This document shows positions 5,269 to 34,278 of a stretch of DNA of 37,085 nt, one piece after another; position 1 is the stretch's first letter, and every line of letters starts with the position of its first letter. Made by a program: the position numbers and the translations under genes. The notes beneath the pieces were generated by a model. It searched no databases. It saw only the letters and a program-made list of their open reading frames with translations, and had not been told where the DNA came from. Source of the stretch: Lentisphaeria bacterium (GTDB taxonomy: Bacteria; Verrucomicrobiota; Lentisphaeria; Victivallales; UBA1829); assembly GCA_017629515.1 (NCBI GenBank), contig JAGBXB010000052.1, positions 1 through 37,085 on the forward strand, read 5' to 3'.

Positions 5269-6534
5269 TTACAGTTCTTTTGAGATGTTTCTGCCAAAAG
5301 ATTCTTTTGCTTTCCAGCAAAGATACAGCATGGGAAGCACCATAAGAAGAATGATAAACCACAAAAAGAGATAGGCTTTCGGAGGATAATGGATGACTCC
5401 GGAAGCCTGAATACTTGCTTCTGCACGGAAAAGATCCAGAAGCAGACCCGCCAAAAAAGAGAAAAATGCTATGCAGATATTCCCGAAGAAATTCCCTGCA
5501 CCCACGGTAAGGGCTGTATTCTCCTCCGGATTATATTCCTTGACCAATGCCGTGAATATTCCGGAAAAACCGTAACCTGCCGCCATAATGAAAAATGCCG
5601 CGGCAAAAAGCCAGAAGGGACCGTTGAACATGATCCCGCAACTTAACATAAGACAGCTGGCAAGCTGGAATACAGCACTGGAAACAAGAAAGGGTTTGCG
5701 ACGGTTGCCTATGGCAAAACTTACTGTGCCAATAAGGCACATTTCCGTCAAAGTAATGGCGGAGCAGATCAGGATCACATTTGCCGCCTGACCTGATGTG
5801 CATTTTGTCACATCTTCCAGGAACTTTTTCCCTATGACCCCCTGCACAAAAAAGAAGATAGCCATATTGCACGCCATACAGTAATATAATTTCATACAGG
5901 CTCTGTTTTTGAAGACCGCAAGATAGGTTTTCAAACTTATGGGGATCTGTCTGATTGCCGGACGGTCTGTTTTTGTAAAGCAGATGAGAAAGCCGGTAAA
6001 AAATACGGCAATGATCACGGTGATCCCGCCGAATGTCTGCCGCCAGGAGTAGTTTTCACAGAAATACACTAATGGCGTAGTGGAAAGGATACTGCCGGTA
6101 TAGGTCATAAGGTAAACGAGTCCCATGACCATAGCAAAATATTTTCCGGGAAAAATCCTTGTGATTTCCTTTACAACACTCAAATAGATGAAGCCGCATC
6201 CGAATCCGGTAACTAATCTGCTTGCAATAAGCAGCGGCACATTTTTACTGCAAATAAAAAGGATCGAGCCGAGAAGCAGCATACTCACCCCTGCAGTCAG
6301 CACTCTTATTCCGCCGTACTTGTCCGTAAGGGGACCAATGAGAAGCATATCCATAGCGTAAATTACGGTAAAGCATATGCCCAGAGCCGAGATCACCCCC
6401 GCACTTGTGGCAAAATCTCTTTGCAGAATATCAAAAACAGAACCGGGAACACCGGAACGGATAATGGAACTCATGCAATAGATCCCCAACATCGTAATGA
6501 GAGAGAATAATGTAAGAAGCGGTATTTTTTTCAT
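5269..6534 (-). CDS. Major facilitator superfamily transporter
   Basis: This 421-residue integral membrane protein has about twelve hydrophobic segments. It carries the MFS loop 2-3 motif as GPLTDKYGGIRVL (after TM2), and SRLVTGFGCGF in TM4. It starts 20 bp after the alpha-galactosidase stop and is the last gene of the leftward operon symporter, alpha-galactosidase, MFS. A proton-coupled importer for an oligosaccharide, sugar acid or small organic anion would fit, but nothing in the sequence fixes the substrate. It is convergent with the AraC-type gene with almost no intergenic space, and no clear terminator was found there. Confidence 0.88.
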   Translation of the reverse strand: MKKIPLLTLFSLITMLGIYCMSSIIRSGVPGSVFDILQRDFATSAGVISALGICFTVIYAMDMLLIGPLTDKYGGIRVLTAGVSMLLLGSILFICSKNVPLLIASRLVTGFGCGFIYLSVVKEITRIFPGKYFAMVMGLVYLMTYTGSILSTTPLVYFCENYSWRQTFGGITVIIAVFFTGFLICFTKTDRPAIRQIPISLKTYLAVFKNRACMKLYYCMACNMAIFFFVQGVIGKKFLEDVTKCTSGQAANVILICSAITLTEMCLIGTVSFAIGNRRKPFLVSSAVFQLASCLMLSCGIMFNGPFWLFAAAFFIMAAGYGFSGIFTALVKEYNPEENTALTVGAGNFFGNICIAFFSFLAGLLLDLFRAEASIQASGVIHYPPKAYLFLWFIILLMVLPMLYLCWKAKESFGRNISKEL

Positions 6535-6554
6535 TTTTTTCTTTTGCCTTTACC

Positions 6555-8207
6555 TTACTTTTTTATGACCAGTCTGCCGCCGGAGGGGAGAATACAGCCG
6601 GATTTTATCCCCTGTGCATCAAAGGCAACTCCTTCATAAACAGGTATATTTTCCAGAGACATATTCAAAATCGTGAGCTCTCCGGAAAAATCTTCTTTCA
6701 GTACTTTTGCCAAATACTCCCCGTTTGTCAGAATGATGATTTTTTCTTTTTCCGGAATCAAAGTACAGGAAACGGAGGCAGGAAAATTATTACAGAAATC
6801 AAATTCCCAGTGTCCATTGTTCAATATTTTCTGTTTGTCCCGGTAGAAGGTGAGATAATTTTTGATGACCTTTTTATGCTCTTCTCTGATCCCGGACAAC
6901 TCCATGGAGACCATGGGTACACCGGCAAGGGAGGCGACCAGATGCCGCCCCACGGCTTCCACACTTTCCCCGGCATTGAAATAAACCGGATCAGCGTGAA
7001 CCGGGATTTTATCCCCCATCAACAGCCGGATCTGAACACAGCGTGAAAAATTTTCCATATAATCGAAAGGCACATCTCCCGCCCGGAATGCTGTCGCAAG
7101 AGACGCCATCAGGGGAGTGGTGTAACTCTGTCTGAATTCTATGAGAGCGTCTTTTTTGTAACTTCTTACCTTGCTGATCAGATTTTTCAGGGCAGTATAA
7201 GCGATCCGGCAGCGGGGGTTTTCCGTATCCGGCTGTATTTCGTCCACAAAGTCTATTTTCAATCCATCCAGATCCAGTTCCTTATAGACGGAATAGATGC
7301 TCTTCATGACTTTTTCTGTAACAGAACTGTTTTTTACATCATAGATCCTTTCCCCCTCATGCAGTTCTGTCAGATATTCTTCCGTCATGGACGCAAGTTT
7401 ACTGCGTCTTCCGCAGAAGAAGGGAGCCACCCAGAAAAGGCAACTCAATCCGTATTCCCGGAGCTTTTTTACATTTTGCTTTATAGCGGGAAGTTTTTTC
7501 TCCGAATATTCCCAGTCCCCGATATCCCTGTACCAGTCCGGCAGAGTAGAGGGCGTGACCCTTTTAGCTTCATCAAAACACCATCCGTCATCCACAATAA
7601 ATGTGCCGAACCCCAAGTCTGCTGCTTCTTTTCCATTGCGGAGCATATATTCATCCGTAAGAGCGGCATGGACTGCGTACCAGGTGCAATAGACACTTTT
7701 CCAGGCATTTTCCGGATATACGGGAATAGCGGGCATGACCATTTTTCTGTACCGGGAAAGGGTTTCAGAAAGAGTGGATTTTCTACTTCCGGTTGCAGGA
7801 ACATCAACAAAAATTTCAAAGGGTGCTGTCTCTTTTGCTATGACGATGGAAAATGTCAGTTCATAAGCACATGCCTCCTGATTCATTTTTGCTGTTACAG
7901 AGCAATCGTCGATCATATTACTTAATCCGACTGCCGTACTTACAGAACCTTTCTGATCCAGAAAGCATACCAGCGGGAAATTTTTTGTTGCGCCGCAGGA
8001 AAAGGATACCACCCAGGGCAATTTCATTGCAGGCATCGCCGAAAGAGCCGGATACCATACACTTGTGAGTTCCAGAATGGGTACAAGTGTTTTTATTTCA
8101 AGTTTTCCGCCGCTGTTTTTCAACAGTTCTTCATGAAGTTTTACACTTGTTGCGCTCGAAAAATGCTGTAATAAAGCGTTGTTATGCGCATATATATCGA
8201 TTTGCAT
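6555..8207 (-). CDS. Alpha-galactosidase-like glycoside hydrolase (GH36/GH27 clan, melibiase type)
   Basis: I chose the ATG at 8207 (550 residues) because it follows CCGGGAAG and lies 17 bp after the symporter stop; the longer frame from 8261 overlaps that gene. The N-terminal third is beta-rich. The TIM barrel (about 165-480) has DDGW at 206-209, LKIDF with the expected nucleophile D319 of the clan GH-D K-x-D motif, and RAGDVPF with D378 as the likely acid/base. The C-terminus is a short beta domain. It has no signal peptide, so it should cleave imported alpha-galactosides in the cytoplasm. It sits between two transporters in one operon, and the MFS downstream is the natural partner for substrate entry. 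Clan assignment is good; exact substrate (raffinose-type sugars, melibiose or a galactoside fragment) is open. Confidence 0.85.
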   Translation of the reverse strand: MQIDIYAHNNALLQHFSSATSVKLHEELLKNSGGKLEIKTLVPILELTSVWYPALSAMPAMKLPWVVSFSCGATKNFPLVCFLDQKGSVSTAVGLSNMIDDCSVTAKMNQEACAYELTFSIVIAKETAPFEIFVDVPATGSRKSTLSETLSRYRKMVMPAIPVYPENAWKSVYCTWYAVHAALTDEYMLRNGKEAADLGFGTFIVDDGWCFDEAKRVTPSTLPDWYRDIGDWEYSEKKLPAIKQNVKKLREYGLSCLFWVAPFFCGRRSKLASMTEEYLTELHEGERIYDVKNSSVTEKVMKSIYSVYKELDLDGLKIDFVDEIQPDTENPRCRIAYTALKNLISKVRSYKKDALIEFRQSYTTPLMASLATAFRAGDVPFDYMENFSRCVQIRLLMGDKIPVHADPVYFNAGESVEAVGRHLVASLAGVPMVSMELSGIREEHKKVIKNYLTFYRDKQKILNNGHWEFDFCNNFPASVSCTLIPEKEKIIILTNGEYLAKVLKEDFSGELTILNMSLENIPVYEGVAFDAQGIKSGCILPSGGRLVIKK

Positions 8208-8224
8208 AAATCTTCCCGGATATT

Positions 8225-9640
8225 TTATTCCTGATTGATGACCTTGTTTCCTCTTATGCACTTGGGATCACTCTCATCCAGTTTGCCGCTCCAGAGATAT
8301 TTTTTTGTTTCAGCGACAACCACTTTATGCAGAAGAAGCAGACTCAATATGTTGGGAATGACCATGAGCCCATTGGCAAAGTTGGCAAAATCCCATACGG
8401 CAGAAAGAGAGCCGACTGCGCCAAGATACACCACAAGAGTATAAATGATCTTGTATGCCATTATTGCCCGGGGGGCTTTGATAATAAAACGCAGACACTG
8501 TTCCCCGTAATAGAACCAGCCGAAAAGTGTGGTGATGGCAAAGGCGAAGATGGCAAAGGAGAGAAGATATTTTCCTACATAGGGGAGTTGTTCAAAGCAG
8601 CTCTGGGTAAGGAGACCGTCGTTGACAAGTTTCACATGATCCGGTCTGGCAAGATAACCGGAAATGATCACCAGCCCGGTAAGAAAACAGATGATGATGG
8701 TGCAGAATGTTCCGGTATAGGAAACCAGTCCCTGTCTCACCGCATTACGGGTTTGGGCTGTTGCCGCAACGATCGGCTCTGAACCCATTCCCGCTTCATT
8801 GGAAAAAAGTCCTCTTGCCACTCCGTACCGGGCGGCAAGCATAAAACCATAACCCAATGCTCCCCCTGCTGCGGCTTTGGGGGAGAAGGCACTTGTCAGA
8901 ATAAGCATGATGGCGTCATCCAGAAAATGGAAATTCATCACCAGAAGGGCAAAACAGCCTGCAAGATAGGTGAAAGACATGAAGGGAACAAGGATCGTGC
9001 AGACTTTTGCGATGCTTTGAAGTCCGCCGACGATGACAAGTCCCACGACCACCGACACCGCAAGTCCGGTCACTACCGGGGAAACATGATAAGTCTTTTC
9101 CACAATGGTGGCAATGGCGTTACTCTGCACAAGGTTGCCTGTTCCCATAACAGCGATGATCCCCACAATACAGAATGCCACAGCCATCCATTTCCATTTC
9201 AATCCCATGAGGATCGTATACATGGGACCGCCGTGAACTTCTGCATTTCTGTCTCTGACACGGTATTTTACTGCAAGGAGGGATTCTGCATATTTGGTGG
9301 ACATCCCGAAGACTCCGGTAAGCATGCACCAGAAAACTGCACCCGGCCCGCCGAGAGCAATGGCTGTGGCGACCCCGATCACATTTCCTGTCCCGATAGT
9401 GGAAGCCAATGCTACCGCAAGGGCGGCAAAGGGAGCAACATTACCGCTTAATGAATCATCTTTCTGAATGACAAGCCGGAACGCTGTAAGAAGATGTTTC
9501 TGCACAAATTTAAGCCGGAAGGTATAAAAAAGGTGTGTCCCCAGAAGCAGGATCAAAAGCGGCGGACCCCACAAAAACGCATCAGCTTCTTTCAGATAAT
9601 ATGCAAATCCTGCGGTAAATCTTATGAGAAATTCTTCCAT
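8225..9640 (-). CDS. AGCS-family sodium:alanine/glycine symporter
   Basis: Start chosen at 9640 (471 residues, MEEFLIRF), behind AAAAGAAG; the frame can be extended to 9730 but that would lie within the leader hairpin. The protein has many membrane helices and the clear AGCS signatures: VALASTIGTGNVIGVATAIALGGPGA and RGLFSNEAGMGSEPI. It should import alanine, glycine or a related small amino acid with Na+. It is first in the operon before the alpha-galactosidase and MFS genes; an amino-acid carrier there is unexpected and may reflect shared regulation rather than shared pathway. Expression is probably controlled by the structured leader upstream. Confidence 0.93.
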   Translation of the reverse strand: MEEFLIRFTAGFAYYLKEADAFLWGPPLLILLLGTHLFYTFRLKFVQKHLLTAFRLVIQKDDSLSGNVAPFAALAVALASTIGTGNVIGVATAIALGGPGAVFWCMLTGVFGMSTKYAESLLAVKYRVRDRNAEVHGGPMYTILMGLKWKWMAVAFCIVGIIAVMGTGNLVQSNAIATIVEKTYHVSPVVTGLAVSVVVGLVIVGGLQSIAKVCTILVPFMSFTYLAGCFALLVMNFHFLDDAIMLILTSAFSPKAAAGGALGYGFMLAARYGVARGLFSNEAGMGSEPIVAATAQTRNAVRQGLVSYTGTFCTIIICFLTGLVIISGYLARPDHVKLVNDGLLTQSCFEQLPYVGKYLLSFAIFAFAITTLFGWFYYGEQCLRFIIKAPRAIMAYKIIYTLVVYLGAVGSLSAVWDFANFANGLMVIPNILSLLLLHKVVVAETKKYLWSGKLDESDPKCIRGNKVINQE

Positions 9641-9800
9641 GATATACTTCTTTTCTGATCGTACAGATCGTTTGTTTTGAAAAAGTCTGTCTTTTTCCGT
9701 TTTGTTTAATAGAAAAAAACTCCGCCCCATATTCGGGGAGAGTTTTTTTTGTAAAATTTACGGAGCATTTCCAAAGTCATTCTTTCAGAAATCTTCTCCT
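9641..9800 (-). promoter_or_regulatory. Attenuator/riboswitch-like leader of the symporter operon
   Basis: Read on the minus strand, transcription from the promoter at 9835-9807 would begin near 9800. Near the 5' end GGAG (9799-9796) can pair with CTCC (9765-9762). The same CTCCG (9765-9761) is an exact complement of CGGAG (9724-9720), which is the 3' arm of a terminator hairpin with seven T. These are mutually exclusive pairings of the anti-terminator type. I do not recognise the would-be aptamer (about 9799-9761); it lacks the conserved glycine-riboswitch core that often precedes AGCS genes. Confidence 0.45.
9713..9752 (-). terminator. Intrinsic terminator hairpin in the symporter leader
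   Basis: On the minus strand, AAACTCTCCCC and GGGGCGGAGTTT form a stem around GAATAT, followed by a run of T at 9719-9713. It lies before the symporter start, so it would act as a conditional terminator rather than an operon end. A-rich sequence on the other side makes it potentially bidirectional. Confidence 0.6.
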
Positions 9801-9806
9801 GTTATA

Positions 9807-9835
9807 AATATAATGTAAGGAAGTAAAAATTGCAA
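9807..9835 (-). promoter_or_regulatory. Promoter of the symporter operon
   Basis: Minus strand: TTGCAA (9835-9830), 17-bp spacer, TATATT (9812-9807). It places the transcript start near 9800 and leaves a leader of about 160 nt. Confidence 0.55.
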
Positions 9836-10022: not shown

Positions 10023-10727
10023 ATGAAGATAACACCCGAATTCCTCTCAGCTCTGGAACTGGCGATCAATGATTCCGGCAGTATATACAAACTTGCGAAA
10101 GAACTGGGAATCTCCCACAGTACCATTTTCTTCTGGCGGACAGGACGCACCATCAATATCCATCACAAGACATGGGCAGGTGGATTGCGGAAAAAATTGA
10201 AACCCTATCTTTCCAATCCTCCCGGTGCTCCCAGTCAGGATGAGCCGGAAGAGGAAAACGGGATGAATCTGGTAAAAGAACCCCGGGCGCTTTACGGGGA
10301 AAGACCCAGAGCGTATCCCTTGGTGACTTTCCGGAAATTGGCTTATTTTGACCCCAATGTAAGATCCACTTCCTCATTTGTCCAGGCATATTCTCTGGGA
10401 AGTTTTTATTTTGTTTCCGACAGCGGTATCACCGCATTTGCTTTGCGTATGGATGAAAGCGTTTCCAATGAGATTTTCAAAGAGGGCAGTACTCTGCTTG
10501 TGGAATGCGGCAGACCTCCCTTTGACGGGGAACTTGTACTTGTGAAAAGTAAGGAACTGCCCCAGGCGCAGCTCTATACTTTCAAGCATGAGGAAGATTC
10601 CTATTGTCTGGTTCCTTTCGGCAGTAAGGAAGCTACTGTACTGCGGTGGGAGCTTACTGCATCCTCTTCCACCATTCTGGACTGGATCTATCCTGTTCTG
10701 GAAGCAAATATTCATTTCTGCAAATAA
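10023..10727 (+). CDS. HTH regulator with S24/LexA-like C-terminal domain
   Basis: This 234-residue protein has an N-terminal helix-turn-helix (about 15-42: GSIYKLAKELGISHSTIFFWRTGR), a variable linker, and a C-terminal half that follows the LexA/phage-repressor S24 fold: FALRMDESV, then EGSTLLVECG, then DGELVLVK, then YTFKHE and CLVPFG. S146 aligns with the catalytic Ser of the GDSM motif and K188 with the catalytic Lys, so the dyad may be intact even though GDSM has become DESV. It is a single-gene unit with its own promoter and terminator. No LexA-type operator palindrome was noticed nearby. It could be a stress or cI-like regulator; its targets cannot be seen here. Confidence 0.7.
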   Translation: MKITPEFLSALELAINDSGSIYKLAKELGISHSTIFFWRTGRTINIHHKTWAGGLRKKLKPYLSNPPGAPSQDEPEEENGMNLVKEPRALYGERPRAYPLVTFRKLAYFDPNVRSTSSFVQAYSLGSFYFVSDSGITAFALRMDESVSNEIFKEGSTLLVECGRPPFDGELVLVKSKELPQAQLYTFKHEEDSYCLVPFGSKEATVLRWELTASSSTILDWIYPVLEANIHFCK

Positions 10728-34061: not shown

Positions 34062-34278
34062 TTCTTTGCCAGTCTTTCTTTTCATTAATATAAACCATGG
34101 ACAGAAAACTATAGCAGAAAACTTGGAATTTGCAAATTGTAAAGAAAGTTTTTTTTGAGAAAAAGTGTAAAATAAACATAATGTAATGAAAAAATCCTCA
34201 TTTCCCCTGCTTGCAGGGATACGGAAATGTTCCGGAAAAAGAAAAAACGAAATATTTTTCTTTTCATGGATTTTTGAT

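Follow-up and report, generated by a model that had tools for sequence, protein, structure and literature searches.

A gene for a sodium:alanine/glycine symporter of the AGCS family in a draft Lentisphaerota assembly (2.9 Mb, 147 contigs) is preceded by a promoter-proximal hairpin with the form of an intrinsic terminator. Such a hairpin is found in four of the five closest species, and its position in the leader makes attenuation of AGCS transcription likely. We analyzed it within a 37,085-nt stretch of one contig (the window), collected AGCS orthologs from 60 related genomes and GTDB contigs, and read their leaders; the titled assemblies among these relatives all come from gut or rumen Lentisphaeria/Lentisphaerae. 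The sequence-only reading of this leader had proposed a riboswitch-like attenuator. The attenuator part stands, as a promoter-proximal terminator kept in the closest relatives, whereas the ligand-sensing riboswitch is not supported, its sensor and switch being unconserved. Rather than a new riboswitch, the sequence suggests an attenuated leader of the ordinary kind. It can serve as an example of leader attenuation for Lentisphaerota, a group in which RNA regulation is little described (few papers in a literature search mention both).

Table 1. Features of the AGCS leader and of the genes behind it (window coordinates)
Feature	Position	Strand	Sequence, evidence or remark
Sigma-70-like promoter	9807..9835	-	TTGCAA (9835-9830), 17-nt spacer, TATATT (9812-9807)
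5' hairpin (presumed sensor)	9762..9799	-	GGAG...CUCC, inner AUUUCUGAA/UUUGGAAAU helix; MFE fold
GGAG	9799-9796	-	
CTCCG	9765-9761	-	
CGGAG	9724-9720	-	inside terminator
24-codon open frame	9706..9780	-	MTLEMLRKFYKKNSPRIWGGVFFY; runs across terminator
Intrinsic-terminator-like hairpin	9713..9742	-	CTCTCCCC-GAATAT-GGGGCGGAG, then U7; arms 9742-9735 and 9728-9720, U7 tail 9719-9713
Hairpin 3' of terminator	9679..9697	-	GAAAAAG-ACAGA-CTTTTTC
GATC repeat	9657..9669	-	GATC-TGTAC-GATC, just upstream of ribosome-binding site; kept in L035, L038, L049
Purine-rich ribosome-binding region	9647..9656	-	AGAAAAGAAG; position before ATG 9640; conserved in alignment A2
AGCS symporter gene	8225..9640	-	471 aa; TIGR00835, 440 bits vs 273-bit cut-off; PF01235
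Melibiase-like (GH36-type) protein	6555..8261	-	second gene of likely operon; PF02065, E 9e-9; same order in L035
MFS transporter	5269..6534	-	third gene of likely operon; PF07690

All elements named in the sequence-only reading are present on the minus strand (Table 1), which confirms the observation itself. The leader in front of the AGCS start codon is about 160 nt long (163 nt in our scan). Judged by a consensus scan alone, the promoter does not rise above chance, but it is conserved in orthologs with and without a terminator hairpin: a TTG[C/T]A...TATATT pair is found at the corresponding position in the close orthologs, in most of the terminator-less ones and in most of those with 69-78% protein identity.

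The terminator hairpin, in which the sequence-only reading noted the CGGAG, is far above chance. Folded with its A/U flanks it reaches -18.1 kcal/mol (z -5.2), and 0 of 200 shuffles were as good; for a hairpin with U-tract anywhere in the 163-nt leader we obtained P 0.003, the lowest value attainable with 300 shuffles. Thus, a stable hairpin with a U-run lies between promoter and start codon, as in a 5'-UTR intrinsic-terminator attenuator. The genomic background was scanned over 311 kb of the same genome (the window and 274 kb of other contigs). Under loose criteria hairpins before U-tracts are common there, with hundreds inside ORFs, so a loose scan alone is no evidence; no other leader examined in the 311 kb carries an equally strong hairpin with such a U-tract. 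Of the near-start hairpins with long U-tracts, two that are about as strong (L066 and L069) were opened, and each proved to mark the 3' end of the gene before it. The AGCS terminator sits in a divergent intergenic region with no gene end close by. A second divergent intergenic region of the window, between the genes at 34085 (minus strand) and 34358 (plus strand), holds two hairpins with T-runs (34186-34278) that, unlike the AGCS case, are seemingly upstream of both promoters.

A hairpin with U-tract occupies the same relative place in L035, L049, L037 and L038 as in the window, in leaders of about 135-165 nt, and its sequence in these relatives differs from that in the window. Compared with shuffled leaders, its P value is 0.010 in L035, 0.013 in L049, 0.086 in L037 and 0.023 in L038, which combine to 1.9e-4 for the four relatives and to 8.5e-6 with the window included, all somewhat flattering because the scan criteria were loosened after the relatives' leaders had been seen. 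A stricter scan, with the stem abutting the U-run, misses the relatives' hairpins; the U-tract of L049 begins 4 nt past the stem, and the hairpin of L037 is weak (-6.3 kcal/mol). RNAalifold on sequence alignment A1 was not meaningful, as the aligner left the hairpins unaligned and broke many pairs. The terminator of L037 is in addition nested in a larger hairpin, about 130-50 nt upstream of the AGCS ATG (L037:1956), where a 12-nt arm, TGTTTATTTTGG, precedes the terminator and is complementary to CAAAATAAACA behind it (79 nt, -24.3 kcal/mol, z -4.1, 0 of 200 shuffles as good); an enclosing hairpin of this type was not seen in the other species.

The fifth close species, L036, lacks the terminator although its AGCS protein is 86% identical, so that at least one species can do without the hairpin. 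The leaders of L036 and of most more distant orthologs measure 45-75 nt and have no strong terminator. In the protein tree, the five terminator-bearing species group with L036 in a single six-member clade (100/100 support), a distribution that would need one gain and one apparent loss (L036). Outside the clade, L040 may represent an independent case: it has a long hairpin followed by U7, although in a leader that is GC/T-rich the P value is only 0.11. We did not count L039 as a terminator, as its hairpin is weak (-3.4 kcal/mol) despite P 0.003.

The most probable interpretation is an attenuator, specific to this clade, that restricts AGCS transcription and works either as a terminator of fixed efficiency or as one relieved by some factor. 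RNA polymerase would start near 9800 on the minus strand, and a fraction would stop at the U-tract and release an RNA of roughly 85 nt, while the remainder would continue into AGCS and the following genes; the terminator would then set the symporter mRNA level downstream of a conserved promoter. That the hairpin really terminates and limits AGCS expression is what we infer from its sequence and position. Read-through may be constant or may be relieved by a ribosome, an RNA-binding protein, a small RNA or a ligand. We favor a constant or a protein- or translation-dependent attenuator over an aptamer because all sequence upstream of the hairpin appears to have diverged beyond recognition. There is also a small chance of a fast-evolving, clade-specific regulated attenuator, in which the terminator is kept and a protein, a ribosome or a tiny ligand pocket in the hairpin regulates it with no conserved upstream aptamer.

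Promoter-proximal intrinsic terminators that act as 5'-UTR attenuators are known, for example, from the E. coli ispU/uppS leader (PMC7815308). The AGCS leader shares with it a promoter, a short leader and a stable hairpin with U-run before the start codon, and likely a short released RNA. E. coli shows widespread premature termination in its 5' UTRs (PMC7815308), so there is nothing unusual in a leader that has a terminator but no aptamer.

One form of relief, in which ribosome progress on a leader ORF across the terminator decides whether the hairpin forms, is unlikely. A 24-codon frame spans the hairpin with an AGGAG upstream, and 5'-UTR termination tied to upstream ORFs has an E. coli precedent (PMC7815308). 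However, the AGGAG lies 15 nt from the ATG at 9780, the frame lacks any series of Ala or Gly control codons, reading the leaders of the relatives by eye revealed no matching peptide, and open frames come easily in an A-rich leader. The frame is probably not a real leader peptide, as neither control codons nor a conserved translated ORF was seen. The Rfam leader-peptide attenuators Thr_leader and Phe_leader score 18.5 and 17.4 bits here, chance-level values that stem from the hairpin and U-run and fall far below the gathering score of 55; the control codons and conserved peptide of such attenuators were not seen.

We are similarly doubtful that an RNA-binding antiterminator protein acts here, or that the leader constitutes a small RNA gene of its own, made up of a promoter, about 85 nt and a terminator. 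Two hairpins precede the U-tract, and every terminator-bearing relative folds something upstream of its terminator; however, these structures have no loop or stem sequence in common. ANTAR targets display an A1/G4 loop, which the terminator hexaloop GAAUAU does not resemble.

It is very improbable that the leader is a new small riboswitch, in which an aptamer of about 40 nt (9800-9761) for alanine, glycine or Na+ would choose between GGAG/CTCC pairing (terminator on) and CTCCG/CGGAG pairing (terminator off). The gene logic fits such a switch, and a glycine riboswitch is established before an AGCS-family gene in Streptococcus pyogenes (PMC5829553). That system concerns the same kind of gene, with termination/antitermination reported in its leader; unlike it, the AGCS leader has no glycine aptamer detected by Rfam, and only about 60 nt separate start site and terminator here, whereas the single aptamer annotated there spans 90 bp and the tandem element is longer. 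In the window, the proposed GGAG/CTCC pairing does form the 5' hairpin in the MFE fold, and the upstream segment folds somewhat more stably than its shuffles (P 0.03). The CTCCG/CGGAG switch is possible on paper, but its conformation reaches only -17.9 kcal/mol, compared with -28.2 kcal/mol for hairpin plus terminator, a deficit of about 10 kcal/mol. The potential of the upstream segment to pair with the arms of the terminator is of marginal significance in the window (P 0.04 for CTCCG/CGGAG and P 0.07, both uncorrected) and does not exceed chance in any relative (P 0.17-0.99).

The sensor shows no significant similarity to any of the four relatives (P 0.09-0.77), whereas promoter, terminator and gene-proximal segment are mostly alike across species in the same test, the terminator similarity being partly forced by the common U-tract. 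Among the relatives, three pairs of upstream segments (mainly L049, L037 and L038) gave P 0.003-0.04, weak and uncorrected values out of ten comparisons. Hence, the conservation or compensatory change that the sequence-only reading required of its sensor and GGAG/CTCCG/CGGAG switch in related leaders was not found, and neither a conserved sensor nor a conserved, mutually exclusive antiterminator, as generally required of a riboswitch, was present. At the gathering threshold, Rfam matched nothing except a tRNA in the window and eight related loci, and a permissive scan of the leader yielded chance-level matches only. The glycine aptamer core was absent from the window and the eight loci at that threshold and from the leader at E up to 10, and no covariance model for the riboswitch classes of Rfam 15 (Na+, Li+, guanidine and others) matched the leader. 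To our knowledge, known aptamers keep conserved cores. A DNA search with the leader in the 60 related genomes retrieved only two matches, of 40-50 nt and 40 bits, on the AT-rich promoter side; the match in L004 precedes a gene that resembles an IclR-type regulator (by reading only) and is unrelated in position. When a leader is purine/pyrimidine-rich, 4-6 nt of switch-like complementarity says little for a riboswitch unless it is kept in relatives.

We give as little credence to the hairpin being an incidental bidirectional terminator or DNA palindrome with no effect on AGCS: A- and T-runs on both sides let it score on the plus strand of the window too and L036 lacks it, but the relatives have the U-tract on the AGCS side only, a pattern that favors a function in the direction of AGCS, and with the divergent gene layout there is no convergent gene whose transcript it could end.

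The downstream half of the leader, with its small hairpin, GATC-N5-GATC repeat and ribosome-binding site, is conserved within the genus. The arms of the small hairpin, GAAAAAG/CTTTTTC in the window, read GAAAAG/CTTTTC in L035 and GAGAAG/CTTCTC in L038, so that L038 provides the one both-sided change among three sequences; the fold of this segment is not beyond its shuffles (z -0.8). The GATC-N5-GATC pattern followed by AGAAAAGAAG is common to the window, L035, L038 and L049, and in the 11 genomes searched its extended form occurs only at this locus, once per species in three species of the genus. This half could be a translation-level element, an mRNA-stabilizing hairpin or a DNA operator; given the few sequences, plain common descent would explain its conservation too.

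The order AGCS, melibiase-like gene, MFS transporter is common, at least in part, to two species of the same genus (L035 and L038), and in L038 an MFS-like C-terminus of the same kind lies behind the melibiase-like gene. The true start of the melibiase-like gene in the window is probably about 8207. In the L038 assembly, its counterpart behind AGCS appears split over several frames (5765-8351), by sequencing error or as a pseudogene. The divergent neighbor of AGCS in the window (10023-10727, plus strand) encodes 234 aa with no Pfam or NCBIfam match; its N-terminus is helix-turn-helix-like, and it could regulate the AGCS promoter at the DNA level.
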